Positions 18,339-59,403 of a stretch of DNA of 64,000 bases are shown here, piece by piece. The position numbers and the translations under genes are program-made. The stretch spans positions 424,957 to 488,956 of the forward strand of contig JAQGDQ010000152.1 of the NCBI GenBank assembly GCA_030141605.1. The letters run 5' to 3'. The notes beneath the pieces were generated by a model. That model saw only the letters and a list, made by a program, of their open reading frames with translations. It did no database searches and was not told the origin of the DNA. The stretch is from Tubiluchus corallicola. Lineage: Eukaryota > Priapulida > Priapulimorpha > Priapulimorphida > Tubiluchidae. Each line of letters starts with the position of its first letter. The first letter of the stretch is position 1.

Positions 18339-21300
18339 ATGTTTGATTTAGAAGCTCCAAGTATTTCTCTTGCTGCTCCAGCCCTCTACCCTGCACCTCT
18401 TATTTTAGAGAAACTTTACCCAAGAGCTACTCTTGCTAGATGGAATACGCCTCTAGGTCAGGAGCTCAATGTTCCAGTCAACATATGGAATCCGTCAGTT
18501 CCTGCTTCTTTTGAAGGTATTTCATTTAAAGCCAAGTCTCTTGACAGATTGAGCTCATTCTAATATTTGAGAAAAAATGTTAGACAGTTTCAGCAATGAA
18601 ATTGTGATAAGCGCCTCGTGTAATTAATAATTTCAATTTAAAATTGCAATAACTTCACATTTGGGCGCGCTCATTTTGGTGAAAAATGGCGTCATCTGGT
18701 TACGTTGCAAAATAGACAGTTATTCTGCCAAGTGTTTCAGCAATCTTTTTTGGACTTATAGGGCGAACTCTATAAGCTAAGTAACCCACCCGATACCTTC
18801 TGTATGCTCTCAAGTTTACATGTGTGTCTGAAAGTGAACAAAAGTCTATAAATTAATTACATTTACATGATTAATGTATACTACTTACACATTTTACGGT
18901 ATAATCCTGTGGGTTAAAGCTATGTAACAACTTTAATCTTTGTCATAATTGATCAAATGACTAATTTTTACATAAACACAGTTAAATACAAAGCTAGAAT
19001 AACTGAACTTTTGAGCGAACTGTAGAAATTGCTCAATACGTACCTTCATCAACCTTGGCTTTGCAGCATTCATGGTGCCCAGCAGTCACCAGCTTGCGTC
19101 ATTTTTTCAAAAATGCCGGCAGCGATGTTCGTTTGGCGGGAGATAAAAAGTATTTAAATTTCTTTTACATTTTTAAGCAAAGCATTCTATGCACATATCT
19201 TGTATTGTGCTTTCAATATGTTTAATTGTACATTAAAACACAATAAATCTTGTTTGAGGGTTGGTTCTTCCTTCACAACATTGCGGCATCAGTTCAGGCG
19301 GAAGACTGTACATTTTTATGAGATCCTCTTTTTACCTTGGTGCATTATGCACAAGGCGGTCTTCAGATGCCACGAGTCTTCAGATATTGCCATGGTGATG
19401 TTTTGGTTATGCTTCAGGTTTACCATACATCTGATACTACAAATAATACTATCACAAGAAAAGTGATCTTTTTAAGTGATGCATTTTTCTCTGGTGTAAT
19501 GTTTGGGAGCTGATTTCACCCAGTCGGACACAAAAGTTTGATCCAGCTTTATGCCAGGCTGAGTGAAACCAGTTGTGTATTTCTAACTTCCAGAACGAAT
19601 GGACACTGCCATGTTTTACGCTAGGAGAGCCACAAAAAAGAAGAAATTAGCAGAAAAAGTTCGGGAATCGTTAGAGCGAGATGATCAGTCAAATCAAATT
19701 CATTCCGTTCAAGGTTTGATAAATGTTTTTATTGATTTTTTTTTGTTTTTTATATCACACTCTGTTATGTACATGAATTTACGACTGTTATACAGCACCT
19801 TTGCAAATAGTCAGCTTCGTTACAGTTTAAAGTTTATTTTGTACAAGAACTGAATACAACATATTAAAATAATATCAGTGGTGCTGAACAAAAATAAAGG
19901 AAAGGCACCTAAAGTCTAAAAAATACTTTAAATTATCATCAAGAGCACAAAATCACAGGAAAAAATTTATCAGAAAGAAATTGCATGATCACACCAGTAA
20001 AACATTTTTGCATATAATGATAGACAATTAAATTACAAAAATGCTTGCTGAAACTGGTGAGTCTTAAGTAGTTTCTTAACTTCATTAACATTTTTAGCCA
20101 GTTTTAGGTTCATAAGCAACTGGTTCCGTAAACGCGCTCCACAAACACCGAAAACTCTATCCCCAGATGTTACGCACTTAGTTTGTGGTATCTTAAGATG
20201 TAGATTGGCAACAAATCTTAAAGTGATAAATCGAACATCTCAGTCAAATATGATGGTGCTTCCCTTTTTCATGATTTAAAAGTAAGAACAAGAACTTTAA
20301 ACTGTATGCAATAGCTAATTGGTAACCACTGCAGCAAGTCAGCTTAGTGACTGAAACAAATGAACAAACAATTGCAAAAATGACTGTATTTTCTGAACTC
20401 ATCAACACTTCACAGTTGATCTGCATTGGCTTAGTGTGTGTTTAAATGATCGCATTTAGACTTATAATGTTTGCCTAATTACTGATAACATTGATAAATG
20501 GCTTGACACATATGCACTTGTTCTAACACAGTTAGCTGATCACTTAAATTACTCCAAGTTTTGATATTAATGTCACCAAAGTTTTTTCATAAAACTGCAT
20601 TCGGTGTCAACACCAAAGTTTCTACCACAATTTTTGTTTTGAAATAAAAAATTTTTACCTTCTACTAAGTCAACAATGTACATGCTTTTTTATAGTTGTA
20701 AATGTAAGTGAATGTGTTTAACATAATTTTTCATTCTCTATAGATTCTAGCAGAATTTTAGCATCAACATCAGCTGCACATGTACCTAGCAAATCCGCAA
20801 GCAAACAGCAACTCGGAAAAGCTGCTGTACCAAAGAGAGATGTCAGGCCTTCCACTAATGTAAAGAAGCCACAGTTTCCAAAGAGTTCCCCAAGTGAGCA
20901 GTTTTGCAAGTTCTTTGCCTTACAGCTTATGAGAATTTAAAAACTTACTTTATTTTTCTGCTGTAATTTATTTCATGACTATAACTTGTCTGCTGCATTA
21001 TTCTGCGAAAGAGAAGGAATGTGAAACAAATTGAGACAGAGCTGGATTTGAACCAAGTACCTTTGGATTATATGGTAATCAATTGATTACGGAGGTAATC
21101 AACCATTTTGCTACAAATAGATTATTACGTGTGTTGCTGTCAAATGCTTTTTTCTTCCTGTAATTGCTTATAGCCTGTTTTAAGGTTGTTGCTGCTTTGT
21201 AGGAAAATACGTTGGCCGTTCTTCAATTATGGATGCAAACAAGGTGTTGAAATTGCAGGAGCGATTTGATGAATATGTACAGCGGATCAGAGATTTGGGT

Positions 21301-22149
21301 AAATCTATAGCCAGTTGTAATTTTCTTGCTAAGTATTAAGATTCATGAATTTTCGACAGATCAAAAAGTTGTTTTGAAATCATGTTTTGTTTACGCCATG
21401 TAATATTCTTAATGCTAACCTCTCTTACCACCAATTTTTCTGGAGTCCAAAGTGAGCTGTTTAAAGAGATTTAGAACTGGTATTTTAGAACTGCTGTCTC
21501 TCCCATTTGACTTGGCAAAATGTCCCGTAATAACAATAACAACACGTAATGTCGAAATTACTGTTTTGTGCTAAGCATGCTAATCCGTTTAATAATTTTT
21601 ATTTATGTTTTGCAACTGTAATAAACTGGTGATGATTTATTATTTACAGACTACAAAAGTGATGAAATAGTTGAGGAAGAAGATGTGATTAGGAGGAGGA
21701 AGCTGAGGCAAGCGGCAGAGCAAACGACTGCCTCTGTGCGCTGCCTGTATAACCTTCAGCAACAAGCTCATAAAATCCATGCAGACATAAACAGAACAAA
21801 TCGAACACAAGATCAAGTGTGTATATTAGAATATTGATTGTGATTTATGATTAATGATATTGAATATCGATTAATGAGTTGTTATTAATTCTTGTTTACT
21901 TGTTAGCATTGTTTACTTGTCTCCTTTTTTCATTAAAGCCATTCAATTTAATCCTGCACATATAGTAGAATATTCAGTTTTGACAAAATTAATGAGTCAA
22001 GATGTAGCAATGCTTCTGTTTTTGATTAATTAGTATTTACGTATTATACTCAAGTGATTACGTGCTTAATGGTGCTTGTTTATGCAAATTAGATTTAATT
22101 TTTGCAGCATTACAAATTACGTAAACTCTTTTAAGTACTTAACAACAAC

Positions 22150-22196
<47 letters not shown>

Positions 22197-24605
22197 CAAT
22201 AATAATAATAGTAATAACTATTAAAAAGTTATTACCAGTAAAAAGGTGCAAGGTACAAAACACTATTTAAAGCTACACGATTAAAATGAATAATTATTAC
22301 ATAATTTTAAATAAGACTGTGTGCTATAGAATTTTTCCCCTCTCAGATTTGTTAAATGAACATGATTATTAAAAATCATTCCTATAATATGATGTCAGGG
22401 ATGGCTGACTCGATGACCTTCTGGTCTTTCGCCACCCCATCTTTACACACTTTATATAATTTGTTGTAATTGTCTTATGAATATAGTATTGGAGATAAAT
22501 GGACTTTTGAATTGAAAAAAAAATGAATAATATCCTCTGGTTATAAAAAGGTTATTAAAAATATGCTTAAAATAAATGCACATTTTAAAGATTTTTAAAA
22601 CGTACATAAAATTACAGCAATGATCTATATTTCTCTAAAAAAAATTTGACCCTTTTTAAAAACATGCACACTAAAACAATTTTTTAGATCTTCATCCATA
22701 TTGTTTTATAATTTGTTACCAAAAGACTTATCAATATCAATGCTTTACTAGAAAGTGCAAATGTTCTTGAACGTAATAATGGTCTGAACTCATTCAAATT
22801 TACTTAATTTTCGAGTGTGAAATACTTGGATAAGTGATAAATTAATTTATTTGTCAGTTTGAGTGATAACTCATGCTCACTTTTTGGTCATTTAAACGAA
22901 GACAGGATGATTTTTCATACACTACCTCATTTTCAAGTCCGATAAAAAGTATACATTTTAACACAATTAATACTGTAACAGCTTTTTTGATAATTAAATG
23001 ATAGATTACTAACTTAACTAACGGCGGGCGAGCTAATATAAAACTAATATAATTTTCAACAGCAAAAATATTCCAAAATATTACCTGAGAGGTACAGCAC
23101 CTGTTTTTATGCAATGCGTTTCTGAAATGCAGGCGCGGCGCTTATACCCATCTAACTAGCGAATGGCGAAATGCACTTAACAGCGAAGAACTAGTGGCAC
23201 GAATGCGAAATTGTATTTCTGTGGTAATAATTCTCTCAAGTAAGTCATTTTAGAAAAAAATAGTATGTTCCCTTTTAATATTTTAAAGAGTAGATTGTTT
23301 AGACCTACACTTTAAGATTGGGTCTGGTTCTGCTTTACTCACTTTTGAACAAATCTTGCTTTTACAGGAACATTTTGTGAACAGGTTATTCTTTGTCTAC
23401 CAAGCAGCAGCAAGAACATTGGAGATTTTTGTAAAGCACGCCGGCTACCACAAGATTGCAGACAGGGAACGCGTGTTTCGTGAACTCGGTCATTTACTAC
23501 AGCTGTTGTCCACTTGTTGTGACCAGCTGGATGTCTGTGACGACCAGTTGCCATCATCAAACAACTTACAGGTTTCCTTATGATATTACTTAATGATGTT
23601 GTTTCAATTAATATACGTGTGTTTGCAAACCAAAACCGTCCGTATGTCGGCATAGTTAGAACTACGTTATGATGCTTCAAAGTAGAATGCACCAAAAATT
23701 TGGTCAAATGTCAATGTTTTGTTTTTATAAAAACAAACAATGCTAAATATATGGACCTATATATTGTAGCATGAAATTATCAAGAAATTTTTCAAAAAAT
23801 ACTAAAAATTTAATTTTATAGCTCCACACTCACTTCTCTGGTTAGAAATTAGTACTAAAATTGTAAAGACTTTGTTTTTTCAAACTCCGATAGTAGCTCG
23901 TGGAAGCAGTCATTTGGCTTGGGTTTTTTTCTGCTATCAAGCCCAGATCTTCATCTGGAAGACCCATCTACTGGATTTAAACATAATTTCAGTGTGTCTT
24001 TGTAAAGTCCGTAGCAACCAGCATTTGTATGGTTGCTAAGTGTTTTGAGAAAACGAGACAAAAAACAATGGCTAACTTTAACAACGATTTTCTCAAGGTT
24101 ATGTTTTTCACTGCATAGCCTGCACTTCAACTTCAACGTGGTTTATCTCAGCTTAGAAATAACATAGAGCGATGAGCTTGGTATCAGAATGATCCTCATG
24201 AAATGGAGATTCAGGATACGTAAATAACTAGAAAATATTAATTGCCGACTTATGGACGATTTTACTATGCAAGCACGGATATAACAAGTTAAATTAATGT
24301 AGCTCAGTATTCAAAATCTGTGACCGGCAGTGAATGAATGGACATTAGCATTGAAAGCTGCTTTACTCTTTATTAATTTGTTGCATTTAAATCTACAAAT
24401 TTGTTTGCTGTTTGAGTGCTCACTTATAGACATGTCAATTTTTTGTTGAATTTTGAGAATTTATTTACCTGTTTAACCCTTTTACTACGTTGTTACTTTT
24501 TAGCTGGGCCACATTGACTTTTGCACATTTGACAATAACTTCTTCTGGTGTGGTACTAAAACAAAATCTTGTAATAGTCTTATTTACACACATGCATGCA
24601 CTCAG

Positions 24606-24670
<65 letters not shown>

Positions 24671-27667
24671 AGCGTTTATTTATATTAAGAAACCACTCTA
24701 ATCCATAATATGCAATCATTTTCATTTTATAAGAATGCAGAACAATGAACTAAACATACGTTTCATCAACGATCTACAAGTGATTTTGTTGTGGGAACAT
24801 ATCTTACAGTACAGTATTGTGGAATACATCTAGCTTCAGATGCTGATTGGCTTGTTAGCATTAGTTTTTGCGAAGCAACACCAAGTCTACAGCTGTTAAA
24901 ATTTTTTACAATGTACTGCATGGCCATAGCAATGAAATAAACAGACTTGGGTGACTGCACTTAGTGCTGAGCTTGGGCGGCAGTCTAATGCCTTCCGTCC
25001 CTTGCATGAAAATATAGGCAGCTGTGTGCCGCCTTAAGTGGTGAAAGGGTTAAGCGTTGTTGGCATTATATTTAATATATTTGGAAAGGAAAAGGCCATT
25101 TTCAAATCAGGGCATTTTTGTCCGAAAATTAGAAAGATTGTAATATTTTCTTGATTTTTCTATAAATTTATGCAAACTTTTATTTCAATAATTTTTTTAT
25201 TAGGCCCCATCTATTTGAGTTTGCAGAAAAAAGTTTGTAAATCATTTTCCTTACACCTGTGTGAAGCTTCATGATCAAATTCAGAACATCGTTCCAAATG
25301 ATTTTGGCAATGAAACTTTTGAGCATAATAGCTGGAAAAAGTAATGCAGCTATTATGAGATCAGTTTCAGGGCTTTTTTTGTCCAGCAAACAATGTGATC
25401 AGTCTGAGTTAGATGGTTAGTGTTGCATTAGGATCCGACTGGGACTCTATAGCCAATAGTCTCAATTAAAATTAATCTGCAAAATACACTTGGTCGTGAA
25501 TTTTGCTTTGTTTTAATGTGAAAACCTGACAGTAATTTCATCTAGCACTAAAACTTTTCTTTTGCTTAGTTGAGATTTTACATAATTTTCTGCAGATTTT
25601 AAAAACAGCACTAGCAAGCGATAGCTTTGATACAAGGCTGCAAAGTGAAAGTGAACCCGTCATGAGGCGTACGTCAAAATTAGATGGTAAGTACTATGCA
25701 AAGTTGTTACAATTACGAAAATAATTACTTAACCTTTGAAAATATAGTGGGTTCTGGGAAATGGTTTGGTTTTATTAGTGGTTTGTGCTGTTCCAAAAAC
25801 TTTGTGTTGTTAATTATATTATATTTCTTATTCTTATTCTTCTTCTAATAATAATAATAATAATTTATTGAATATTTAGAATGCATTTTAACCTTTAAAT
25901 CTTCATTGTAACACAAATTAGTTTTAATTTACCAGCTATCTGTCATTTATAAAGGGCAGTAAATCGTTTTTGGTCCAAGGAGGTTGTACAAGAGCAAGCT
26001 ACCCTACAAAAGCTCTTCAAATACTTAAAGGAAAAACATCGTAACAGCTTCATCTTTTGTACAAATTACAGGAGCACCTTCATCTTTCATCCAATGTAGT
26101 GGCTTAGCCAACAAGTTCTTTTTGTTAAAGTGAACAGCTCATTTCTGCCACTGAACTGAACACAGACCATCGGTATTTGAAATTAAAGAATGTAGCTTAT
26201 ATATTCATACATCTCATAAAGTTATTTGATTGTTTTTTTTTTGTTTAGCGAAACCACCGAGTCAGAACATGGTGAGGTTTGATATTTCACCTACAAGAAA
26301 ACCAAAAATGGTAAAATCTTCCGGAAATCTAGAAGCAGCTAAGGTAAACCAAATGTTCTATGTTGATGTTAAATGAATAATTTCTTTTAAGGAGGGGCGA
26401 ATAAAAATGTTGAGCTGCAATTCTACTAAAGTGGAAATAGACATGATTTGCACACATTTTTTGTGCACTTTTAAGATGATTTCCAGAACTTATTTTGTTC
26501 TTGTGATGTTCTTTTAAAATAAAGCAGTTTTCTTTTTCAAGTGCAACAAAAATTTGAGATCCTTTCACTTAAGATTTCTATGCGGCAACTTTACCAGCTA
26601 GGTTTCTTCATTCGTGTCTATGTAGTTCAAGTAAAACCAGATCCAATCTTAAACTGTAGGTCAAAATAATCTACTCTTTAAAATATTGAAAGGAAACATA
26701 CTATTTTTTCAAAAAGGATTTATGTGAAAGAATTATTACCACACAAACACAATTTCATGTTCGCGTCACTAGTTCATCGCTGTTACATGCATTTCGCCAT
26801 TCGCTAAATGGGCACTAGCGCCTGCATTTCGGAAATGCATTGCACGAAACAGGTGATGTACCTCTCAGTTCACATGTGTTAGCTTGTGACTAACTACACA
26901 CATCCGACAGCTCATGCGTGAGCACAGCGGTAAATTTAAAATTTGAATTTTCATCTTAAAACTCGCCTAGTTTTAGTACAACAAACTGGATATCTTACAG
27001 TAGCACTGTTCTTCAATTTTCGCTTTCACAAATACGTGCAACAAGCTCGTGGAATATTTTTGCTGTTCAAAATTGTGTTAGTTTCCGATGTCATCAATAG
27101 TTGGGCTCGTCCGCTGTTAATTAAGTTTTTAATCTTATATTTAATTATCAGAAACAGTTTGGTAGTATTAATTGTGTTAAAATGTATACTTTATATCGGA
27201 TTTGAAAATGGGGTAGTATATGAAAAATTGTCCTGTCTTCCTTTAAGTTGCTAATCTGCTGATTTAGTATTTTGCTGGCATGCGTTCCTATGGTTGATTT
27301 TATTTTGTCTTCATGTAACGTTTCCGCTTTCAAAGAGCCCTCTTGTAGCAGATAGTGTAACGTTTAACGTAGCTTCTGGAAAAGCAGAAGGCACCAGGTT
27401 CGATTCTCAGTGGAAGTGCCAATCTTTTTGCTTTCTAATTTGGTATTGCTTTCATGCACTTATGTGGTTTCATATATCTGGCACAGATAAAACGTGATAG
27501 AATTCGATCAAATGCTGGACATCCTGGTGGCTTGCTGAAATCGCAGCCTGCAACTCATTTCCGCTCTTCCTCTATGCCGTCAGCGGGGAGGAGAAGTACC
27601 CCACTCATGTCCACACCTGTGCCGAGATTTAGAAAACCAAAGAAAGAGCAGTTCGACGACTGGGCCG
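18339..27667 (+). CDS. KIAA0753: Moonraker (KIAA0753/OFIP) homologue, N-terminal and middle part
   Basis: Nine exons: 18339-18516, 19594-19713, 20744-20893, 21203-21298, 21650-21816, 23368-23571, 25596-25686, 26249-26343 and 27487-27667. All have GT/AG ends and matching phases, giving 427 codons plus one base. Moonraker is a centriolar-satellite protein that recruits CEP63 and works with OFD1/FOR20 in centriole duplication and ciliogenesis. Matches to the human protein as I recall it: DTAMFYARRATKKKK; a helix LKLQERFDEYVQRIRDL; VIRRRKLRQAAEQTTASVR leading to CLYNLQQQAHKIHADI; and ARTLEIFVKHAG with ELGHLLQLLSTCCDQLDV. The rest is basic and low complexity. The start is the first ATG after an in-frame TAA at 18306. 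The frame continues in phase into 57295-59403. Confidence 0.82.
21035..21120 (-). repeat. tRNA-derived SINE-like unit
   Basis: On the minus strand it has an A-box-like TAGCAAAATGGTTGA and, about 50 nt on, a perfect B box GGTTCAAATCC (21044-21054), the internal RNA polymerase III promoter of tRNA-derived SINEs. The ends do not form a tRNA acceptor stem, so it is not called a tRNA gene. It lies in a Moonraker intron. Confidence 0.5.
22142..22220. repeat. (AAT)n microsatellite
   Basis: Nearly uninterrupted AAT/AAC trinucleotide repeat in a Moonraker intron. Confidence 0.95.
22885..23330 (-). repeat. Dispersed repeat family B, copy 1
   Basis: Shares long stretches with 26636-27245 in the opposite orientation: the block around AATATTTTAAAGAGTAGATT, the CGCCATTCGC segment, TACCTCTCAG, GGAATATTTTTGCTGTT and TTAATTGTGTTAAAATGTAT. 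This copy lacks about 195 bp present in the other. Both copies keep an overlapping open frame reading VLIVLKCIL. Probably a transposon of unidentified class; no terminal repeats resolved. Confidence 0.65.
23616..24277. mobile_element. MITE family A, copy 2 (Moonraker intron)
   Basis: Reverse-oriented relative of 739-1326. The TIR is about 35 bp: the left end reads CGTGTGTTTGCAAACCAAAA then CCGTCCGTATGTCGGCA; the right end complements it. It starts about 45 bp after the Moonraker exon ending at 23571. Non-autonomous. Confidence 0.72.
24606..24667. repeat. (CA)n microsatellite
   Basis: About 30 CA dinucleotides without interruption in a Moonraker intron. Confidence 0.97.
26636..27245 (+). repeat. 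Dispersed repeat family B, copy 2
   Basis: Inverted relative of 22885-23330, with about 195 bp more in its middle. The open frame on the plus strand (VLIVLKCILYIGFENGVVYE) parallels the minus-strand frame of copy 1 (VLIVLKCILFIGLENEVVYE). The pair brackets Moonraker exons 23368-26343. Confidence 0.65.
27341..27425 (+). repeat. tRNA-derived SINE-like unit
   Basis: An A-box-like TAGCAGATAGTGTAACG and a B box GGTTCGATTC (27397-27406), separated by about 45 nt, suggest a pol III-type tRNA-related SINE. It sits just before the Moonraker exon at 27487. No acceptor stem. Confidence 0.4.
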
Positions 27668-28120
27668 GTAAGTACTTATTCGTTTTTAAACTATTGCACG
27701 TCATCGTCGCTTTGTTTCATGTCTTTTGCAACACTAAATGCATCGAGAAAGGGGGTGCTTTAACGTTTGGTTGGCAGCTCACTTGAAAAACTGTGTGCCA
27801 GATTTCAAAATTCAGTAGCTGAACTAATAAATCACTGGTTTTTTAATTTTATTCTTCGCTGTGGCCGCCTTATTTCAAGAATTGAATGTAAAACTGCACT
27901 TTGTTAAAACGCAAACCTGTTATTAACACCTAACGTAACCATTGTGACAGCTGGGCCGAAGATACATAAAAAATGAGCACTTTAAAAACACAAATTTGGT
28001 TATATTACGTCTGTTCCAGAATCAGTTAGTTCATGACAAGCAATTTAGGTCATAGAAATCTGACTAATGATCTAAATAAACTTTCAATTTTTCCGCAAAA
28101 TCCATAAGAATAGCGTAGAG

Positions 28121-28534
28121 CAGGGGTGTGCAAATTATCTGACTACCCGGGCCACATTAAACATTCCCGCAATTCCTGTGGGCCACATGCAGTTTGGTCA
28201 AGGAGCCAAGTACAGTAGGACCTAATAACGATTTTTTTGCATCCGATTTGCGCACATCATCACTACTGCACTACTACACTCAAGAAACAATTTTAGAAGT
28301 TATTAAAATTTATATTAAAAACCATATATTTCGTCATGTCCGACAGTGACATTAAGTGACATAGGTCTTGTAAGGGTTAATGCCATCCGATCTAGAGGAA
28401 AAACTACCCGCACTATCTTTGCGATATTGGCGCAGACTTCAGCTGGATCGCGTGGGCCGCACTTTCATTACGTTGACAAACCTCTTCGCGGGCCGCACAA
28501 GATCTCTCGGCGGGCCGCAGTTTGCACACCCCTG
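28121..28534. mobile_element. hAT-type MITE with 8-bp target duplication
   Basis: 414 bp with ends CAGGGGTGTGCAAA and TTTGCACACCCCTG. It is flanked by an exact 8-bp direct repeat GCGTAGAG (28113-28120 and 28535-28542). CAGGG-type ends and 8-bp duplications are hallmarks of hAT transposons. GGGCCGC motifs recur inside the right half. No transposase, so non-autonomous. Confidence 0.9.
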
Positions 28535-30413
28535 GCGTAGAGCAAAAACCGCCAATTTCAACATTTTACTAACGGTCTCATAGCCCTTTACGTACGATCG
28601 TCATGTATCTTAAAGGTGCACAATTGTCCTCGCAAACTATGTTACAGTTTTAGGAAGGAACAGGAACTCCATGTTGGTCTAAAGAATAAATAACCTTTGC
28701 TACGTGTTAATTCAATATGTTCTCTAGGCATTCTTAGTGTTGGTTTGCAAGATGGCAATTAATGTCTCTTTAAACATGGAATACCGCGCAAGCTCGTTTT
28801 AGACCGGTTCACTTAGACAATTCTTTTCGTATCGTAATCTGAACAGTTTTCTTGGTTATGGATTAAAATAAGTTTGTAATAGCATTGGTCATATAATTAA
28901 GAGCAAATAGTAATAGAGCTGTCACAGCTGCACTAACTTGTATAATTTTTTTCACTGACGGCCATCTTGTTTCAGAACACTTCGTTTACTGATTTTTTTT
29001 AGCTTTAGTCGTCATTAGGAAAGATCAACAGGTTGATCTTATTTGTTAATAGTAAGTATAAATTAAAACATTGTGTTCTAAAAATCTGATGTTAAAATGT
29101 TTTCTGAAAGTTTTTAAAAAAGTTGAACAAACAAGAGCATGTTGTGTTTTAGCAGGGCAGCAGCTCTGTCCCGCACTCACTAACACTGTGTAGCATGATT
29201 GGCTAAAATCTTAACCACACTGAATTAATCACTGTGTACCATAGAGTTACGTTCAATGTGGGCTGATTATTGTATTAGTTATTAATAATATTACTTAGGG
29301 GGTTTATTTACCATTAGGCTAACTAGGCTATAGCATAGTGTGCCATATTTTGAGAATTTCCAGATTTTAGAGACCCAGTCAGTGGCAGCTTGTATATATA
29401 AATATTGTATTGCAGCACCCCTATTTTCACTCATTATTACCAATAATGTTCAATATAAAGTCTTTTTTCTTTAGTTAGTTCTTTATATTTGTACGGAACC
29501 GCATCACGTGAGGGTAGTACTGTTTGCTTTGCAGCCCAGCACAGTGCACTCCAGCAGTGCGATATTTGGGTGTCGTGCGCATGTACACGTTTGAGATACG
29601 ACAGTGCACTTTAGGTGGAGAGTACTGTCGCTCACACAGTTTGTTGTCAGTTGTCACGTGCTTACCGTGAATGGATTTAACTGTGACAATTTAGGCTATT
29701 AATAAGCAAAAAACATTTCTTTTTGTTTAGGATTTTTTCTAGTTTCTTTATAAACTTTCATGTCCGTTTGTTTGTTTAAAATTACAATTCATATAAAGCG
29801 CATATTTTATAACACACCACAAGCAGTTACCGAGTCCGCTTTTACCACATGCACATATATGTAAATAACAATCAAATAGGTGCTACTAATAATAATCGAA
29901 CACATAAATAATGAGTGCTGGCCTCAGAAATTCAGGAACTGTCAGCCTAGGGTGTCTTAATGTCTTGAAATTTAAGTTGACTTTGTCATTTGTACGAAAC
30001 TTGAGCAGAAGCAAATGATTATTATTAAAGTAAAATTTGAGTTTAATTGAGCTCTCGCAAAATGAAAGTTCAAGCCGGTGAACAACACGTGAACTCTAAA
30101 TGTAGATTGCATAATAGCCTTTGCACTAATCCTTTAAAATTCAGATAAATTTCCAAATGGAAAATATTCAGATTACTCAATTCGTTAGAAAAGAACAGAT
30201 TCCCACCTCCAGTTTTCAGTACGAGAAATAGTTTTTTGTGTCATTAGTGCTTTTACCCTGACAACAATATAACGTTTTTCAAGTTTTTTGTGTTCTGAAT
30301 ACTGTTTACAAAGCTATCTTATGATTGTGTACTATATATAAACATGGTAAGACTCAGCTGCAAAGAATACAAAGCAGAGAATATCTTATACATAAATTAA
30401 AATTAATTTAAAG

Positions 30414-30419: not shown

Positions 30420-30921
30420 ATTTATCACACTAGTAATACAATAGCACATCAAACATACAAATGGCTGGAACGCTTCTATAAAAATTTACATGTTGCGAAT
30501 GTTGTAGCACGAATCACATATAAGCTATACAACAAGGCTAGAAACACTCAACGTTTTAAAATCCAATATACATGATTGTAACATTCTAGTGTAAAATCCT
30601 GCAATAAAATCGATAAATAAGAATAAAAGGAAATGCTTGCTGCATCAGGACTTTCATCCTTTTCAAACAGTTATAATAATCAAGCAAGATGCCATCTGAG
30701 GTAAACTAAAAGAAAAGCAATCACTTCCAACTCTCTGTAGTCTGGCGACAGTTCTGGCATATTTCAACAATGCTAGTGAAATGATAAATGCTACCTAATG
30801 CACATTCATGATACTACATAGCACAATCACAAATGTGTCTATAAAACTAGTGCTTAAAAATGAAGCAGCGCACTTTCGACGTGATGCATCTACAAATAGT
30901 GATAGACTAGCTAGCTGTTTC

Positions 30922-33900
30922 CTATGCATAATAGCTTGGTGAGACTAGCAAGTCAGTCAACACGGCCACCTGATCATCGGTGAACTTCAACTTATGATCT
31001 TGCCAGTTGTCGTGATGGGTTCGTCGGAAGTTGCTGAGGGTCTTCTTCACCGTCATCTGTATAGGTTGAGGATCGTGGATGTGGTCACTCAGTGCCATCA
31101 GGACATCCGGTATGAGTTCAGGAACGTCGTACGGATGTGCACCGACGTACGAACACAGACCCAGAATGCCAGCGTGCCTCTTTATCAATGCAGTTTGGTC
31201 AATCGGATCTCGTTTATTGTTCTACAGTTAAAAAACAAATCAACCTTTAATACTTTAAGAAATGAGCAGTAGAGTAAAATCCAATTTAGTAATATGAATG
31301 TTTTAAGATTGGCATATTAAATTTTTTGCCCACTTTTGAGCTTCGGCAGTGCAAGCTTATGTAACACGGAATTTAGCAGAAATACAAAATTAAATAGCAG
31401 AAATTAAATGTGTGGTGATCACTCATACTTACAATAAGAGGAAAAGTTATTTGATTGCTAAAAGTGATTCAAGTCAACAACTGTGACAAGCATCTGTCTC
31501 ATGCACCATCACCCCATTTAAATCACAACTCTTTTTACCTCGATTAACGAAATATGTTGGCCAATGTGATACTACTACGGCAAGAATTTCTATGTTTTGT
31601 ACGTACAGGTTTTCGAATTTGCATTAATTTTACAGCGGTCTGCTCACTTGGCGTCATTGCCTAATGCGGTTTTTCCTTGTGAAATAAGAGATTAGCTACA
31701 ATGACATTTCAGGCTACCAACATTGTTACACAGCTGCCATTTTGTAAAAACAGCACAACCTTTAATTACTTTTGTTTGACTGAGACTCAGTGCGACTACA
31801 TTGATTGAACATATTGGCACAGTTTGCCTTCGCCTCAATTAGCATTTTCGTTAAACGTGAACTACTAGTAATTATATCAGTACCATAAACGAAGTTACCT
31901 TTAGTTTAGTTTTAGACCACTTTTTAAACATATCCAGCAGCTTAGCGTCCATGGGGAATAGATCACAGTGAATGAGTCCGGTAAATGTAACAGCTGCCAT
32001 GTCTCTCACCTAAGAGCAGTAAACAGTTTTTCAAGATACAGATCTTGCAAAGACAAATACTTAATATGAGTTGTCAAGCAAACATGCATGCAATAAATTT
32101 ACATGGAAAATACCTCTAAAATATGGTAACAGTTTAGCCATTCATAATCGAAGTCAACCGAGAAAGGTTACTGCTTGATTATACTTTTCCTATCATTGTT
32201 CAAATAACCATGACTGGTAAGAAAGAATACTGCAGAGGAACTGCCGGCCAGCCATTATATTGGACGTGCAATCGGCAACTTTTATGTGAAGAAGCCTCAA
32301 ATGTGGTAGCAGTTTTTCGAGTGGCTCGTGAAAAATCACATTTATATGTGGTGTGTGAAAATGGAATTCTAATGAATAAAAGCATTGCTTGATTACACAT
32401 GTTATTTGCCTCTTAAAAATTCTTACCTCCAATTGTTCGTTTCTCATCATTTTGAGGACCACATCTCTGATGAATTCGACCCACTTCTCATTTTGCATGA
32501 TATTGAAAAGATTGCAAAATACCATAACCTACATGACAGATAACATAGACTTTTTATAATATTCTGGTAAAGAAGAAGAATGAAATATTAATCACCATAA
32601 ATCTAAGAAGTAATGATCATAAAGGTAGGAGAGTAATCCATAAATATGAAAGGTAAATCAATTTATGCTCTTAAAGTTAATTACGGTTGTATTTTCATAT
32701 TCAGTGACAGAAGCAGAAGTCAGTTAAGTTGCACATTTTAAATGAATTACCCTCACAAGCAGTTTTCCAAACATTTAAAGTTAACAACTAAGTGTCACCT
32801 TACCTGTAGATAAGCTAGAACAGAAGATTTACTTCGCCACGACGTTCCATCTGTAATTTTCTTCACTTCGTCTAATGCTACGGTGATGACTTCTGGCTTA
32901 AGGTATGCCTGAGCAAGGCAAGCAAGGGTCAACGCACATTCCTTTTTTAATTCCTCATCTGTCGATTCATGTTCTAGTTGAGAGATCAATGGAAGGAGAC
33001 GGAAAACTTCAGGTGGTGCACTATAGTGCATTCTGGCTAGTGAAGCTTGGAGCCACTTTAGTGTCGTTTCAAATAGACGTTTGGCTTCTGTCTTTTCGGG
33101 TTTTTCATCTGATATTTCCTGTGCTCCATTCAAACCATTTTCTAACAATATCATCAACTTTGGAACAATTTCGGCAATAAATTCCTTCCGTGAAGGGCAA
33201 AAGACATTACTAATGTGCTTTAGTTCAATTTCAAATAGAAATGTATTAGCTAGAATGCTGCCTAAACGATCACGTACATTCTTAAACGAGTTGCTTAGCT
33301 TTGGTTTAATCACATCATATAACGTTTGTAAGAGTTTTGAAGCACGCCATTCTTGCTGAGATACTGCACCTTGGAGCAGATACAAGCGTCCTGCAACATG
33401 AAATGAACCTTCAGAGTTATCTTGAAATGGGTTTTCCAACAAAACTTTGAACAGCCAATGCAGTTTTCTAATATCCATGCTTTCCGAAGCAGTTGCTACA
33501 CATGTTCCCCAGTCTTGAACTGTCTCCAGTGTCATACTTTTTAGCACCTGACGTAGAAGAGGATCCAGCCATTCCCAAAGATCTTGGAGTTTTTCAAATT
33601 TCCAATGTTTACTGCCTTTGACCAATGCAGCAATCATTTCTGATGCGCAGCGCTGGCTACTTTCATGACTGTCCAAAGCGAGCCTTTCTATATGTGGGCG
33701 CATAAGTGGTACAAAAGTGTCACCAAAATTGCGAAACAGTGCCCTCAGAAAATTGTACTTTCTTGCATCAAATTTGTCCTTTCCTTTTGTCTCTTCCAGA
33801 GAGAAAAAGTTTAGGAGTTTTTCCAGGAATGCTTCACTAGTGAAAGCATCATAAATTGGGAGCTCCTCTTCCATTAGTTCTTCTCTAGTTCTGTCTAGTG

Positions 33901-45998: not shown

Positions 45999-47480
45999 AT
46001 GGCAAGTCAGATAGGACATGAGGTAGAAGAGTTTGTAGAAGGTTGGGATTTTGTGCAAACACTTGGGGAAGGTGCTTATGGAGATGTAAAACTTGTTATC
46101 AATCGAATGACACAAGAAGCTGTAGCAGTAAAGGTTATCGATCTGTCAAGATTTCCACAAGCTGTGATGGATGTCAAGAAGGAAATAGCCGTGCATCGTA
46201 TGTTAAAACACAAAAATGTAATCCAGTTTTTTGGAAATCGAATAGAAGATAAACTGTATTACATGTTTATTGAGTACGCTGCTGGTGGAGAACTTTTTGA
46301 CAGGATTGAACCTGATGCTGGCATGCCACAGCCTGACGCACAACATTACTTTAGACAACTGCTAGATGGTGTTTCCTATCTGCATGAACTTGGAATAGCA
46401 CACAGAGATATTAAACCTGAAAACCTACTTTTAGATGCAGATAATAATTTGAAAATTACAGACTTTGGTTTGGCAACACTTTTCAGACACCAGGGAAAGG
46501 AACGAAAATTGACAAAGCGCTGTGGAACCTTGCCGTATGTAGCACCAGAGGTTATGAATAACAAAGAATACAGTGCAGAGCCTGCTGATATCTGGAGCTG
46601 TGGAATCGTACTTGTAGCCTTGCTGGCTGGTGAGTTACCATGGGATTACGCTTGTTCTGATAACAAAGAATATCGTGACTGGAGTGACTGTAAAATAATG
46701 TCTACTCCGTGGAATAAAATCAACAATCTGGCGCTATCAATATTGCGTAAGATTTTAATGCCCATTGTGAGTAAACGTGCAACGATTCGGCAAATTCAGA
46801 ATCACGTTTGGTACACGAAAAATTTTCATAAAAATTTACAACACTCGCAGCACTCGTTATCGTCGCCCGAGAATTCAATGAAAAAGTTGTGTTCTGAGAT
46901 GGATGTATCACCATCCGCAAGTCGTTGCCCTAGCAGCCCTACTGAAAGAATGTCCGCATCACAACCAATGTTCCATTCCTCTGATACTACTGATAATGCG
47001 GAAGAGAAACCGCTTATGGACAACCTCCTCCATGGGGCATGCTTTTCACAACCAGTAAGTAAAGCTGAAGACATGTTGCTTAACTCTCAGCTGACTCCGA
47101 CACAGAGTTCACAAACACCACTGCAGAGACTCGTTAAAAGAATGACAAGATTTATCGTCACCACATCGGCAGAGGAAACTGTCGAAAAACTAAAATGCGC
47201 AATCAAACGTCTTGGCTATCATTACAAACAGAATTCTCTAGGCGAAGTTACCATAGAGATGCAAGACAAGAGAAGTGTCAGACTTGTTTTCAAGGCTTGC
47301 CTGCTCGAGATGAACTCACAAATTCTGGTTGATTTTCGCTTGTCGAAGGGAGATGGCATAGAGTTCAAACGGCAGTTTCTTCGTGTGAGGGAGCAAGTGA
47401 AAGACATCATCAACAATAAGGTGCAGTTGCCACTACAAACAGTAACGAACACCGTTTGGTCAGAGGAAGTGAAATGCTGA
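45999..47480 (+). CDS. CHEK1: Checkpoint kinase 1
   Basis: An intronless coding region of 493 aa. The ATG at 45999 starts MASQIGHEVEEFVEGWDF; an in-frame GTG at 45948 is not a credible start. CHK1 is the ATR-activated serine/threonine kinase of the DNA-replication and G2/M checkpoint. From that Met: glycine loop LGEGAYG (22-28), Lys45 in VAVK, HRD Asp137, KPEN, DFG Asp155 and CGTLPYVAPE. The C-terminal regulatory part includes SQ sites Ser321 and Ser350 (CFSQP, equivalent to the ATR-target Ser345), then RLVKRMTRF and a KA1-like domain with LVDFRLSKGDGIEFKRQFL. All catalytic residues are present. The human gene has many introns, so the single exon means intron loss or a retrocopy. AATAAA is at 47892. 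Confidence 0.97.
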   Translation: MASQIGHEVEEFVEGWDFVQTLGEGAYGDVKLVINRMTQEAVAVKVIDLSRFPQAVMDVKKEIAVHRMLKHKNVIQFFGNRIEDKLYYMFIEYAAGGELFDRIEPDAGMPQPDAQHYFRQLLDGVSYLHELGIAHRDIKPENLLLDADNNLKITDFGLATLFRHQGKERKLTKRCGTLPYVAPEVMNNKEYSAEPADIWSCGIVLVALLAGELPWDYACSDNKEYRDWSDCKIMSTPWNKINNLALSILRKILMPIVSKRATIRQIQNHVWYTKNFHKNLQHSQHSLSSPENSMKKLCSEMDVSPSASRCPSSPTERMSASQPMFHSSDTTDNAEEKPLMDNLLHGACFSQPVSKAEDMLLNSQLTPTQSSQTPLQRLVKRMTRFIVTTSAEETVEKLKCAIKRLGYHYKQNSLGEVTIEMQDKRSVRLVFKACLLEMNSQILVDFRLSKGDGIEFKRQFLRVREQVKDIINNKVQLPLQTVTNTVWSEEVKC

Positions 47481-50271: not shown

Positions 50272-52008
50272 TTATCTGACTGCTACTTGTGGCATACTCC
50301 TCACACTTGTCTCGCTATTCTCATTGCTATCTGAAGCATGACTACAGCTTCCAGAGTTGTTGTCTTGATGTTTTTTTATTCTTTTTGCAACATTTGTGTT
50401 TAGGGCTTTTTCTTGAAAAGAAGTTGCTGGATCGTGGTTTACCAATTCTTCGATCTTTTCGTGTAACTTCTGTTCGGCTTTGCCAAACTTTTTTAAGCGT
50501 CCTGGTATCTTACACTCAGGAATCGAAACAAGAAGCAGTTTTTGTAGCGCTACAGTTCCGCGGTCCATCATCTTAGAAAGGAATTCGGGGTTTGGCCTGG
50601 CAACCACCAAAAAGTATATAGGAACGGAAAGCGACTGAATCACAAAGTTAATTATGAGACCTTCTACGTATTCAGGATAAATAAGTGGTACAATGATGAG
50701 ACATACACTCATCAGCAAAAACACTACAGGTATGAATGTGGGGAATGTCACAGGTCGAGGCAAATCGGGTCTCTTCCAGCGTAAATATAGTTGTGTCACT
50801 ACTCCCATACCCACCATACTCCATCTCAAGCAACCGTAAGAGTTGTGTAAAGCTTCAAGGTTGTTGTCCGATACTATGACATATAAGCTGGCCATCACAC
50901 CATTAAGAATCAGTGCCGGTATGGGTGTAAGATGAATGACGCTGATCATCGCAAATAGTTGGGGTAGATGCTGCCCGTCACGTGCACCCACGTAGTAAAT
51001 CCTGCCACCCATAAAAACGCGACCATTTAGGACGCCTGCTAACGACAATGTTATCAGAGCTGGCATTATCACCACCCACGATCCCATCGTTCTAGCTGCA
51101 AAATCAAGAGCTATAATACGACTTTCGAGAATCTCTTCTTTTGGTATCACAACCATATAGGCGAGGTTGGTCAAAACATAAACGACTGTCACAATGAACA
51201 TAGATATTAAAATTGCCCGTGGCAAAGTTTTGATTGGATTCTTAATTTCTTCCACTGCATAGTTCAGGGTCTCCCACCCCGCATACGAGTACACGCCCCA
51301 ATACATGGCTCTCGCTATTGATCCACCCTCCAAGTTCGTTCCTTCAAATACTGATTTTTGAAATTTAACTGGATATGTTGCTAACGCTACGATACCCATA
51401 ATGCTGATTATGATTAGAGCCAACATTTTGCTGTGAAACGTTAATATCTCGAAATTCACTGCCCATTTCACATTGAAGCAATTAATTACAATAACCAGCC
51501 ATATGACGGCAAGAGCAAAGCAACGTTCGGCTGGTATGTTAGACTCTAGCTCACATCCTGGCAACACATAACTGAATGCAGTGTTATGCCGAGCAAGCGT
51601 TAGAGCAGCGATTGCTTGTGCAACTGGTCTTCTAAGCCACAGTTCCGACCAAAGAAAGAAAAAAGCGGCAAATGGACCAAACGCTTCTTTAAGATACGTG
51701 TATTGGCCACCTGACTTGGGAATAGTCAGACCTAATTCAGCATAGCACAATGCACCAAATAAAGAAAAAATTCCAGACATTAACCACACTATCAACGATG
51801 CGCCGGATGATCCGGCGTGTAGGATCACATTCTTGGGCGTGGTGAATATACCTCCACTGATTACTGAACCAGACAAAAGGGCGATACAGGCGACCAATCC
51901 CAATCTACGATGCAATTCGTGAGGTTCCTCAGCTGACATAAGAACATCTGCTTGTTTTGTAGACGACTTTTCTGTTGAGGCGCCAGATTTATCATCTCCC
52001 TCGGCCAT
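50272..52008 (-). CDS. LAT-type amino-acid transporter (SLC7 family)
   Basis: A single coding exon, 578 aa, ATG at 52008. The fold is that of SLC7 light chains (heteromeric amino-acid exchangers of the APC superfamily), with about twelve membrane segments. TM1 (37-56) carries SGSVISGGIF, the position of the GSGIF substrate-binding loop in human LATs. IPKSGGQYTYLKEAFGP (96-112) and YAGWETLNYAVEEIKNPIK (242-260) are family signatures; GRVFMGGRIYYVGARDGQ (329-346) follows. Cys152 (VLPGCE) in the TM3-TM4 loop may be the residue that disulfide-bonds to the SLC3A2 heavy chain. N- and C-terminal tails are cytosolic and hydrophilic. A strong acceptor (TTTTCTTTTTAG) ends 62 nt before the ATG, so the 5' UTR is spliced or trans-spliced. 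Which LAT subtype this is cannot be decided here. Confidence 0.93.
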   Translation of the reverse strand: MAEGDDKSGASTEKSSTKQADVLMSAEEPHELHRRLGLVACIALLSGSVISGGIFTTPKNVILHAGSSGASLIVWLMSGIFSLFGALCYAELGLTIPKSGGQYTYLKEAFGPFAAFFFLWSELWLRRPVAQAIAALTLARHNTAFSYVLPGCELESNIPAERCFALAVIWLVIVINCFNVKWAVNFEILTFHSKMLALIIISIMGIVALATYPVKFQKSVFEGTNLEGGSIARAMYWGVYSYAGWETLNYAVEEIKNPIKTLPRAILISMFIVTVVYVLTNLAYMVVIPKEEILESRIIALDFAARTMGSWVVIMPALITLSLAGVLNGRVFMGGRIYYVGARDGQHLPQLFAMISVIHLTPIPALILNGVMASLYVIVSDNNLEALHNSYGCLRWSMVGMGVVTQLYLRWKRPDLPRPVTFPTFIPVVFLLMSVCLIIVPLIYPEYVEGLIINFVIQSLSVPIYFLVVARPNPEFLSKMMDRGTVALQKLLLVSIPECKIPGRLKKFGKAEQKLHEKIEELVNHDPATSFQEKALNTNVAKRIKKHQDNNSGSCSHASDSNENSETSVRSMPQVAVR

Positions 52009-53220: not shown

Positions 53221-55093
53221 CTGACGAATGTAACAAAACATTTCAATTATTCTGCAGTAATTTTTTCCTTACGGGCCCTAATGCATTCTAGCAAAATGGG
53301 TGTTAAACATCAGTAAAAACGTTATACCTTCAATAATGAATACGTTTCTGTGGTGAAAGTTTTACAGATAATGAAAAACCTGTAATGCTTGGCTCAAAGG
53401 CCTACGGTAAACTTTACGTAATTTGGATAGGTAGGTAGGGGCAAAAGAATTTATTAGAATTTGCAGAAGTGGCGTATTTGTACATTCAATTTGCGGTGTA
53501 TGCAATATATGTTTACATGTTGCGATTTTTTAAGCAAGCAAAGCATTTATTTTGTATTATTAATTTGCTTTAAAATGACTGATAAAATTTTAACGGTTAC
53601 CTTTGCTTGTTTTGAATGATTTATTTAGAAATGCTCAGGAATGATAGCATTTACCATTCATTATACCACAGCTCAGGATGGAACCACTCTGTTATTTGTA
53701 AAACTCAATCAGTGAAATTTCGTATGCAATGCTACATATCAGTCTCAGCTCAAGTGCGAAACTGCTTCATGAAACACTGTCACATATTCTGTATTCTATA
53801 ATTAGATTAACATGCATATCTATGTGTTTATTAAATGCCTGTTAATGTAAAGAGATTGTTATAAGATGACAACTGATTGCAGCTGTAAATCTGTTTTAAC
53901 AGATGTTGAAACATCTAGCATGTGCTAGCACTGTTATTGATTTGCCAGCAGCTAACAGCGACACTAACTTTAATTACTTCCTAGACACAATAAATGTAGT
54001 AGCGAGGCTCACATTGAAAAACATATTACTGTTAGCACTGATAAAAAAGGTTACTTTGTTGATTAGTTTTTAGACTATTTTACCTCTCTGCTGGCAGAAC
54101 AGTTGGGAAAGTATGCAATGCATTGAGAATGTTTCTGCGTGTAAGACATGAGTAGAAGAAATAAAATAGTTTGACACAAATTATTTCACAGAACCGAATT
54201 ATGCAGAGTCTACAGTAATTATACGTTGCTATTTTTGCACTCGAAAGATTTACCATTCAATGCTGCCGCAGCACAATGTAATATTTTTTGATAAATATTT
54301 GGATGTAAGGTCTATAGTTTTACTATAGTTTGGCATTTTATTGCCTGGTTTTGCATTTTGACAAATTATTGTCCAGAGTTTTTAATACTGTGCACTTCTT
54401 TCCAGTTTTATGTTTTATGTTAGCCGCATACATTGTTTTATGCTTCCAATCAGCTTTGATCAATATGAAATGATATGGGTTAGCAATGGGTTAGCTGCCT
54501 CTATGACATTGCAAGCGAGTCCCAGCTCAGTGCTCTTTACCAGACCTGTTTTTTCGTGTAGAGACTGGTTGCTGTGTACCCAGTGTGGCTGAGATATCTA
54601 TGTTTGTGCAGTGAGTCATCCTAGCACTGATGGTGATCTGGATAATGATAGTCTGGTCTCACAATGACCATCCTGTCAGAGTAGGATCTGCCATGCTCTA
54701 GTTTGCAGGATTCCAGGATAAAATTAAAACTTTCTTTTTAGAATTCAGTATCATTTTTTACAAAATACTGTACCTTCAGTAATGGAGTAAAAATTGCATG
54801 GATATCATTCAGGTTGATTAGTCACAGAATCATCATTGCATGAAATGATTACTTTTAATGTTAGCATGGTTAATAAAAAGTAGTGTACCTATAGGCCTAC
54901 AAGCACAACCGTAGGCCATAATGTTTGATTTATATGACTCACTCTAAGCCAGTTATTAATATTATCGACTTCTAGTGAGACGTCTTTGGAATCCATGCCC
55001 TAACACAAATCCAAGCGTCAGAGGCTTCAACTTGAAACACATTACCACAATTTCACAAAGGAGAATATTTATTCCAATAGAAATATTTCTGTA

Positions 55094-55836
55094 GGCCGCC
55101 GAGTAACCCACTAGCCGAAGTAGGACACTTCCGGTAAAACACGTGCTAAATTTGAGGAAAAGCAGTGTCGTACATGGGCAGCCCAAGTCGGGCACTGGCG
55201 ATTTCTGTCAAGAATCGAGATCTATGACGTAATAAAACGTAAAACTAAATTTGTTTTAAAAAAAAGTAACATCATAATAATGATGGATAGTCCTTGACTA
55301 TTTACTTTTTACGACAATATCATCATTATTATTAGTTCCATTAATAATTATCATCATAACATTAAACTAAGTATCTAATGCTTTAAAGAGAGAAACTACG
55401 TAGGGTACATAACTCGCTAACCCGTTTACTTAGTAGAAAACAATTATTTGTCCAAGAGGGAGTGAAGAGAATCACCTGTCTGTGAAGCAAGACAATAAAA
55501 AATGATATACCTTATACTTTAAGCAAATGTTGGAATCACCTAAAAAGTGCACTTATTTTACTTCAAAGAAGATTAATATTGACAAATATTAATTATACTA
55601 ACTCAGAGTAAAATTTGTTTATTTTATCAGATGTATAATAAATTATTCAACATGTATTGACGTGTTTAATTATTATTACATAAACAAGGACAACGGACGG
55701 TGCCAGTACACTTAATGACTCAATTTGCGACCTGTCCCTTGTGTCCTACTTGGGCAGCCCATGTACGACGCGTCCTACTTGGGCTAGCCCATGTATGCCA
55801 ATTGTCCTACTTCGCTTAGTGGGTTGCTCGGCGCCC
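55094..55836. mobile_element. TIR element with long inverted ends
   Basis: The left end GGCCGCCGAGTAACCCACTA then GCCGAAGTAGGAC is matched at the right by an inverted copy (minus strand GGGCGCCGAGCAACCCACTA then AGCGAAGTAGGAC), about 33 bp with few mismatches. Sub-terminal inverted motifs (TACATGGGCAGCCCAAGT / ACTTGGGCAGCCCATGTA) strengthen it. A target duplication was not evident. No transposase. Confidence 0.8.
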
Positions 55837-55917
55837 AACACTGCTTCATTTTATGGTGATTCCACGTTTAACTGCAATACAGCCTCGACTTGATGCATAG
55901 CAAGAACTTACTGTAAG

Positions 55918-56822
55918 TAATATGCTAGCATACCATACTTCGGTGATGACCAAGTGACCACTATCAATGGCGATTACGCTACTTTTACTACCGTGAGTAG
56001 GTGATTATTTTCAGTAATATGAGATCGCTTGCGAGAGCACTGCAATATTTTTGCAAATTACCGTAATCACAGTATTTTTTGCTGAGCTTTTTTGAGGCTT
56101 CATATTGACTAGATTACTTGACTGAAATAAAATTATTTTATAATTTTTTTATTAACGCTTGTGTACAGACTACATACATGCTTATGCGGGCTGTAGAAGT
56201 CTTTGTTGGCCGTTATCGCGTGCGTGGCTTCTTTTTTGTGATTTTACTACTTCGGGCTTTTCTCAAGGTATAAGTATAGCTCCATAGATTGTGCCTGAAA
56301 AGCACGAAAAAAACAGAGACTCATATTAGATCAGATTTAGACTATTTAGTAATGTCCTAGCATATCCTACTTCGTGACGACCGTGAGTGACCACTATCGC
56401 TGGCGGTTACGCTACTTTTAGCATTAGTGCCGTAAGTAGGTAATTATTGTCAATAATATGAGATCATTTGCAAGAATACTACGATATTTTTGCAGATTGC
56501 TGTAGTCGCAGTCTTATCTACAGAGCTTTTTCGAGGCTTTAGATTGATTAGATTACTATCGCTTGACTGAAATAAAATTATTTTATAAAAATTTCTTTAT
56601 TAACGCTTTTGTACACATACATACATGCTTATGCTGACAATAGGAGAACTCTTTGTTGGCCGTTATCGCGTTCCGTGGCTTCTTTTCGGTGATTTGACCT
56701 CTTTGGGCTTTTCTCAATCTACAAGGGATACTTCGTAGATTGTGCCTGAAAAATATGAAAAAAAAAACAGAAAAGAAGTTAATGTGACTTGACTCATACT
56801 AGATCAGATTTGGATTATTTAG
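55918..56822. repeat. Diverged tandem duplication (~430-470 bp)
   Basis: Two adjacent copies (about 55918-56347 and 56351-56822) share ordered blocks such as GTGACCACTATC, GCTACTTTTA, ACTGAAATAAAATTATTTTA, TTTGTTGGCCGTTATCGCGT, GATTGTGCCTGAAAA and AGATCAGATTT. No open frame is conserved between them. It follows directly on the TIR element. Confidence 0.8.
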
Positions 56823-57294: not shown

Positions 57295-59403
57295 ATGTCG
57301 ATAAAATAGATGAGAAGCCTGCAATTGATGTTAACAGAATCATTCAAGAAATAGAACACAGACTTCGAGATGTTCTTAATCCACTGCTGGCCGATGCTAA
57401 GAACATTGCAGAGCAACACGCTGCTATCTACAGAAATACTGCACAGTCACTTCGGCACAACTTGTCAGAAAGAGTGACTCAAACTGTAAGAAAACTTGGT
57501 TAAATAAATGCTTCATTACAGAATTGCATAGTGGAGATCATCAATATAATATTATTTAACTATCAGTATATTCTTAGCTAACTATGTGGAATTTGTACCA
57601 TGAGTTTATTAAATTCATTTCATATGAAATTTGATCATTGGACTGTGTGAAGGTAAACTCTAACGTAAATTAATCAAACATCTTCATGTACTAAGTTTAC
57701 AGCAGAATAGGACTATGTATGCCTGGCTTTTGGTATTTTACAAAAAGGTAAAGTGAAGCTGGTGGTGTACATAATGAGATTGAGATAAAGGCGATCAAGC
57801 AGTTTATATCTATATTAAAAAATGAAGAGAATTCGTTTGTTGTTTTAGTTTTAGGCTCCTTGTCATTTTGGCATCATTAAAAGAGATGACAAAAATACTA
57901 GCAGTCAGAGTCAGATTAAGGTTTGTTGGTGCCCTAAGCACAACCCAGCATCTGGTGCCACTGTTCTCTTCATGGCTGAAAGCATACGTTTTGTGTGATA
58001 CGAATTATGTGCCATTATATATAAAACAAACTCCATTGCCCTATATATAAGATTTATACCACTTAAATTCTTAATTGGCTTCAAAATGGAATTTCAGTTA
58101 AATAAATAAGCTATAAAAAAGAAGATATGATGCCTATCAACGGCAAAAAAAACCCAGAATTTTGTTAAACATAACATTAAAGTGATCCCACAGTGTGAGG
58201 TGTTGATCAGGAAACTTTCTGCTCAAGGGCCTTAGCTAATGGTCGCTGCAGGCATTGTGGTTGGCAACTTGCCATGACAGTAGGTGAAAACATGGTGATA
58301 AAAAGTGAAGACTGTACTAGGATGCTATGTAATGATATGAAAAACAATCCTTCCAAAGTGCCTCATTCTTCTATAGCTCTTTTTCACATTTTGTGGTCCT
58401 TAACATACTTTACTAAAATTTTATCTGTTTTCGATTAATTTTTTGCCAGCTTTGTGCCCGCTGAGCCTTGGTGCCTTCAACACATGCTTAGTCCGCTTAT
58501 GTGTTAATCTCTTACCTGCTCATAGTAGGTTTTTATTATGTCTGCAGCACTTTCCTGATTGTTTTCTCAGACATTAGCCTCAGAACTAGCTATTATAGTT
58601 GAGATTAGCATGGATTACCACTAAACTGAAGATCGTCTCTGTCTGCCAAGTATGGATGGTGTGTTAAGCCAACGCTACTTTTGGCTACGTCCAGCTTTCC
58701 TAATATTTGTTGCGTATAAGTTAGCACCTGAGAAATTTATTTTAAGTTGTTTGTTTTTTTTAATTAAACACTGATGAAAGGTAATTGTGTTAATTGCATA
58801 ACTGTTCATTAAGGTTGAGCATAGCTCAGATGTCCTGACTGGTGCGATACTGAACGACTTGCTCACCGACACCGCGCAGGAATTGCTTCGTCTTAGTGCT
58901 CTGAAAGAGGCAGATAAGCATGCGAACGTTCTTGCCATGCAGCCAGACTTGGAGACCATTCTTCAAACTTTGGACAAAATGGAGGTAGCGTTTCAAAACT
59001 GTGTATCAACAATGATTTCTTCATTTGTGTGACTGTAAAAACTCAGAACAACTGTCATCACCTGATATTTCTGGTTTCCTTCATCTGATGAACTTGTCAC
59101 AATATAAACCAGTAAAACAATAAAATTTATTAATGTAATTATTATTATTGTTGTTTTGCTGCTGCTGTTATTGTTGTTATGCATTTTATAAAACTAATGC
59201 TTGTATATAGCTTCTTTTGTACAACTAACTTTGAGAAGGCATTCGTTTCATACTTTGATGTGGAAAAATAGTAGATTTTATTTTCAAGCAAATTGCAGTT
59301 TGTTTACTTTTTTAGAAAGAGAGGGATGAAATGAGAAATAAGTGGACTTCATTGGTTTATGATGACCCTAATTTCAATGCTTCTAGGCAAGCGGACACTC
59401 TCG
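57295..59403 (+). CDS. KIAA0753: Moonraker (KIAA0753/OFIP) homologue, C-terminal part
   Basis: Exons 57295-57485, 58814-58984 and 59316-59403. The first needs one base from its upstream exon, exactly what the exon ending at 27667 supplies, so all twelve exons read as one open frame of 577 codons plus one base. Matches to human Moonraker: IIQEIEHRLRDVLNPLLADA (human ..VEEAVLDRLKPLLVKA), ILNDLLTDTAQELLRL, and DLETILQTLDKMEK leading to WTSLVYDDPNF. Helical, probably coiled-coil. The human protein continues about 140 residues further, so later exons should lie downstream; I could not find them before 64000. The last exon ends in the first unit of a 100-bp tandem array. An ATG at 57240 would add a hydrophobic leader, but the acceptor TTTAGTTTCAG at 57294 explains the sequence better. 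Confidence 0.8.

Follow-up and report, generated by a model that had tools for sequence, protein, structure and literature searches.

The locus described here raises the question of whether the gene for Moonraker (MNR) in Tubiluchus corallicola is one gene or two. The window, a stretch of 64,000 bases, carries exons for an N-terminal and a C-terminal part of MNR, with three other genes between them. A preliminary description left three explanations open: a giant intron with nested genes, a gene split in two, or a misassembly. The sequence favours the first, and we infer that MNR is probably one gene whose intron 9 hosts PSME4, CHEK1 and a y+LAT-like SLC7A gene (Table 1).

Table 1. Features of the MNR locus, in window coordinates.
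Feature	Position	Strand	Details
HPF1 (PBZ zinc finger)	9129-10205	-	single exon, outside MNR; one place in genome
MNR exon 1	18339-18516	+	GT/AG end, phase match
MNR exon 2	19594-19713	+	GT/AG ends, phase match
MNR exon 3	20744-20893	+	GT/AG ends, phase match
MNR exon 4	21203-21298	+	GT/AG ends, phase match
MNR exon 5	21650-21816	+	GT/AG ends, phase match
MNR exon 6	23368-23571	+	GT/AG ends, phase match
MNR exon 7	25596-25686	+	GT/AG ends, phase match
MNR exon 8	26249-26343	+	GT/AG ends, phase match
MNR exon 9	27487-27667	+	GT/AG ends, phase match
MNR intron 9 (putative)	27668-57294	+	29,627 nt, phase 1; donor gtaagt, acceptor tttcag
Interspersed repeat, left end of intron 9	28108-28548		dozens of 93-98% copies elsewhere (best 40 candidates)
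PSME4	30922-38079	-	five coding exons, 1,832 aa
PSME4 coding exons	38079-37094, 36803-32804, 32528-32427, 32009-31899, 31221-30922	-	
Minisatellite, between PSME4 and CHEK1	40820-41577		28-bp unit, 27 copies, 98% matches
CHEK1	45999-47480	+	single coding exon, 493 aa; same sense as MNR
y+LAT-like SLC7A gene	50272-52008	-	single coding exon, 578 aa
Interspersed repeat, right end of intron 9	55087-55854		dozens of 85-90% copies elsewhere (best 40 candidates)
MNR exon 10	57295-57485	+	GT/AG ends, phase match
MNR exon 11	58814-58984	+	GT/AG ends, phase match
MNR exon 12	59316-59403	+	GT/AG ends, phase match

The MNR model comprises 12 exons, bounded by GT/AG and consistent in phase, which together encode a 577-aa protein fragment. 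The start is an ATG at 18339, with an in-frame stop 5' of it at 18306. The joined protein matches Pfam family PF15718 (protein moonraker; MNR/KIAA0753/OFIP; curated cut-off of 27 bits) with 85.6 bits (E 3.1e-24). Each of the collinear halves also exceeds the cut-off on its own: exons 1-9 score 48.5 bits (E 5.1e-13) over profile positions 134-415, and exons 10-12 score 47.9 bits (E 7.8e-13) over positions 666-810. A search of the whole assembly (343.5 Mb in 2,344 contigs) with the joined protein, at E values up to 10, returned 12 matches, which are these 12 exons and none other. This search replaced a genome-wide search with the Pfam MNR profile, which was uninformative, since it gave no match even at this locus and recovered none of 14 controls. 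A PDB search with the MNR protein gave no match. Judged from the sequence, it is no chance result that the two parts of a gene with a single locus share a strand, keep their order and match in phase. The same strand, the right order and the G/AT join of the halves, as first described, are borne out by the splice sites, the phases and the separate PF15718 matches.

Exon 9 ends in GCCG at 27667 and is followed by gtaagt, and exon 10 starts with ATGTCG at 57295 after tttcag. The length of the intron thus defined agrees with the interruption of about 29.6 kb noted earlier and is approximately 15 times that of the next longest MNR intron found; the ten other introns span 309-2,024 nt. With a scoring matrix built from the remaining MNR sites, the donor itself left out, the donor (CCG/gtaagt) is among the best two of the 3,790 GT sites of this strand; in leave-one-out scoring it comes first among the 12 MNR donors. 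The acceptor ranks 189th of 3,624 AG sites (about the top 5%) and is fourth of the 11 MNR acceptors in leave-one-out scoring.

The length of the interval might instead reflect gene fission, with an N-terminal gene that ends after exon 9, a C-terminal gene that starts near 57.2 kb, and products that are possibly rejoined in trans. The exon 9-exon 10 distance far exceeds the other MNR introns, and an end shortly after exon 9 can be read from the sequence: read-through past the donor adds 39 codons up to a stop ending at 27786, followed by an AATAAA at 27826, a motif present at about 1.1 per kb of the MNR strand. Translation from an ATG at 57240 would run in frame into exon 10 and resembles a signal peptide; however, this ATG lies within the acceptor's pyrimidine tract, whose translation would look hydrophobic in any case. 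Moreover, donor and acceptor are kept and their phases match, whereas decay would be expected after an old fission. An old fission is also difficult to reconcile with a C-terminal part (exons 10-12) whose in-frame ATG codons begin no earlier than residue 106 of 150, past its first two thirds, and with the lack of a stop before the exon 9 donor in the N-terminal part. The spliced leader of Ciona had no exact match, which says little for this species. The strong donor, the fair acceptor, the matching phase, the absence of an early start in the C-terminal part and the absence of a stop in the N-terminal part favour a giant intron over an old split; a recent fission is possible, but fission as a whole appears quite unlikely. 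Given the read-through stop and the AATAAA that follows it, an N-only MNR transcript, either an isoform or a gene ending after exon 9, is possible.

A misassembly would have placed the PSME4-CHEK1-SLC7A block wrongly in an MNR intron of ordinary length. Multicopy repeats do lie close to both ends of intron 9, and a weak 45-nt pair with 71% identity links the flanks of the block (30478-30522 and 53505-53549). However, the two end repeats belong to different families, no other repeat of at least 40 nt was found between the block flanks (searched across 26000-60500), and the window contains no N. Neither flank of the intron had a second copy beyond its repeats among the candidates scored (the best 40 of 4,027 for the left flank and the best 40 of 882 for the right). 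No other place was found for the PSME4 exon or for CHEK1, and two false joins would have had to restore strand, order and phase. The uninterrupted sequence, the lack of a second flank copy and the different families of the end repeats favour the giant intron, and a misplaced block is very unlikely indeed.

It is less straightforward to say that intron 9 is a single intron. PF15718 positions 416-665 (250 positions) are unmatched and about 70 aa of MNR bridge the gap; therefore, MNR exons may be missing from the model. The nest could be real while MNR has further exons inside it, which would break intron 9 into at least two introns; this reading is a form of the giant-intron explanation and overlaps with it. 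When the interval was scanned against Pfam one frame at a time, MNR was not among the matches listed. Such scans respond poorly to single exons, which leaves room for them: over exons 10-12 the same scan listed exon 11 alone (E 0.19), with exons 10 and 12 absent. A first scan for cassette exons was swamped by CHEK1 and was repeated with the nested coding sequence masked and with looser splice cut-offs. The candidate phase-1 cassettes in intron 9 are 43584-43706 (score 20.0), 53368-53430 (17.9) and 39714-39785 (17.9), all above the best minus-strand control cassette in the same stretch (15.9). However, all three fall below the weakest of the 11 real internal MNR exons, which score 23.2-35.9, a range favoured by splice matrices trained on those exons, and exons 9 and 10 agree in phase when joined directly. 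Further exons within the nest are possible but rather unlikely.

The position 59403, initially taken as the limit of the gene, is the end of exon 12 but not of MNR. The PF15718 match stops at profile position 810 of 964, and the last base of the window, 64000, is also the last of the contig, so that the last exons of MNR are missing from the sequence. A scan of the three plus-strand frames between exon 12 and the contig end, of low sensitivity to single exons, found no match to profile positions 811-964, and none of the candidates for a terminal MNR exon 3' of 59403 was convincing (best score 7.5). At 59361-60165 there are eight copies of a 101-bp unit, which consists of the 3' end of exon 12, its donor and the start of the next intron.

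The similarity matches of PSME4 (antisense), CHEK1 (sense) and the SLC7A gene (antisense) place all three between the MNR halves, as originally proposed. The coding parts of all three lie wholly within intron 9. They sum to approximately 8.7 kb, or 29% of the intron, with limits set 12 bases too wide for CHEK1 and 2 too wide for SLC7A. PSME4 is similar to PDB PSME4 chains over chain residues 25-349, 342-1668 and 1749-1843, and exons 3 and 4 were placed between the PDB-matched parts by their splice sites and open frame. Exon 2 of PSME4 is 4,000 nt long, and the 1343-aa exon has a single place in the genome. CHEK1 was found at one locus; among the 86 of 226 candidates scored, the 84 other matches listed are at most 39% identical, and none extends beyond residue 308 of the 497-residue query. 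The nearest PDB chains to the SLC7A gene are y+LAT1 and y+LAT2. Among the 75 of 104 candidates scored, its relatives elsewhere in the genome are at most 52% identical in pieces of at least 100 aa, with a few short pieces up to 59%. Searches of the window with Rfam at gathering scores and with a tRNA scan gave no match. Among searches for clues to kinship, one for COX1, aimed at the mitochondrial code, had no match and recovered 8 of 14 controls; one for GH6, a clue to tunicates, also had no match but recovered 0 of 14 controls; and a comparison of HPF1 with the PDB did not decide the matter.

Two of the nested genes, CHEK1 and SLC7A, have a single coding exon, in accord with the preliminary description. 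Its hint that this structure is special to the nested genes did not hold, and single-exon structure was rejected as their distinguishing mark: HPF1, outside MNR, is also a single-exon, single-locus gene. In addition, 31 of the 84 other kinase matches in the CHEK1 search lie in open frames of at least 400 aa, on contigs that may include contaminants. Long single exons are thus not confined to the nest. No intron-bearing copy of CHEK1 or SLC7A was found elsewhere among the candidates scored. From the missing introns and the lack of an intron-bearing copy, and from nothing else, it is most likely that both genes derive from, or lost their introns through, reverse-transcribed mRNA. PSME4, with four introns retained between its coding exons, need not be a retrocopy. 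The retrogene replacement of amphioxus SYCP1, as described in PMC5803294, is similar in that a single-exon gene is the sole genomic copy. According to the same paper, SYCP1 adjoins the ParaHox cluster and is not intronic, whereas CHEK1 and SLC7A are intronic. The two cases also differ in that retroposition of CHEK1 and SLC7A is deduced solely from missing introns and copy number. Retrogene replacement is relatively common in Ciona according to PMC5803294, which cites Kim et al. 2014.

The MNR nest appears, from its sequence, to be a crowded case of a familiar layout in which genes lie within introns. In PMC8467205, internal genes are typically short, intronless and mostly on the opposite strand, with opposite-strand shares of 74.3% in human and 77.8% in mouse for hosts with one internal gene. 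The likeness to the metazoan nested genes in that paper is the presence of intron-poor genes in an intron of a longer, unrelated host, and the two antisense genes of the three are consistent with its opposite-strand shares. At MNR, by contrast, three genes probably share one intron, PSME4 has five coding exons and encodes 1,832 aa, and CHEK1 is in the same sense as its host. A literature search returned no title that describes such an arrangement of these genes, which is no claim that it is absent from print. The residents include the apparently sole copies of CHEK1 and PSME4, although the principle is already known. Gene finders would likely split such a locus into two host fragments, and MNR would then be reported as truncated or split.

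MNR is a centriole and cilium gene, and CHEK1 is a cell-cycle checkpoint kinase. If MNR is one gene, RNA polymerase would transcribe it through the whole nest, and the spliceosome would join 27667 to 57295 and remove the 29.6-kb intron. The nested genes would each have a promoter and an end of their own. CHEK1 reads in the same direction as its host, so the MNR pre-mRNA would contain the 3' signals of CHEK1, of which the first AATAAA is at 47892, and these would need to be bypassed to make full-length MNR. CHEK1 transcription may thus favour short, intronically polyadenylated MNR RNAs, for which the first AATAAA is that at 27826. It is conceivable, but very unlikely, that the nest is regulatory and that sense CHEK1 determines whether MNR is made at full length or as an N-terminal isoform polyadenylated within the intron near 27.8 kb. 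If so, the layout of the genes would by itself be enough for cell-cycle state to decide which isoform of a centriole protein is made.

Nested-gene transcription promotes intronic polyadenylation of the host at H13/Mcts2, according to PMC13309782. Intronic L1s and nested genes reportedly induce intron retention, exonization and cryptic polyadenylation (PMC3192792). By analogy, MNR may show the same effects as H13/Mcts2 and these hosts. The likeness to H13/Mcts2, as described in PMC13309782, is a nested gene in a host intron; H13/Mcts2 is imprinted, has one nested gene and was tested experimentally, whereas the MNR nest is known from sequence signals alone. With a nested gene on the host's strand that has 3' signals of its own, the 29.6-kb intron offers a natural setting in which to test how host transcripts withstand transcriptional interference.

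Other repeats in the window include a 91-nt direct repeat at 56223-56764, upstream of MNR exon 10, with copies 79% alike and 451 nt apart, and a tandem array of 11 copies of a 33-bp unit at 4037-4388.
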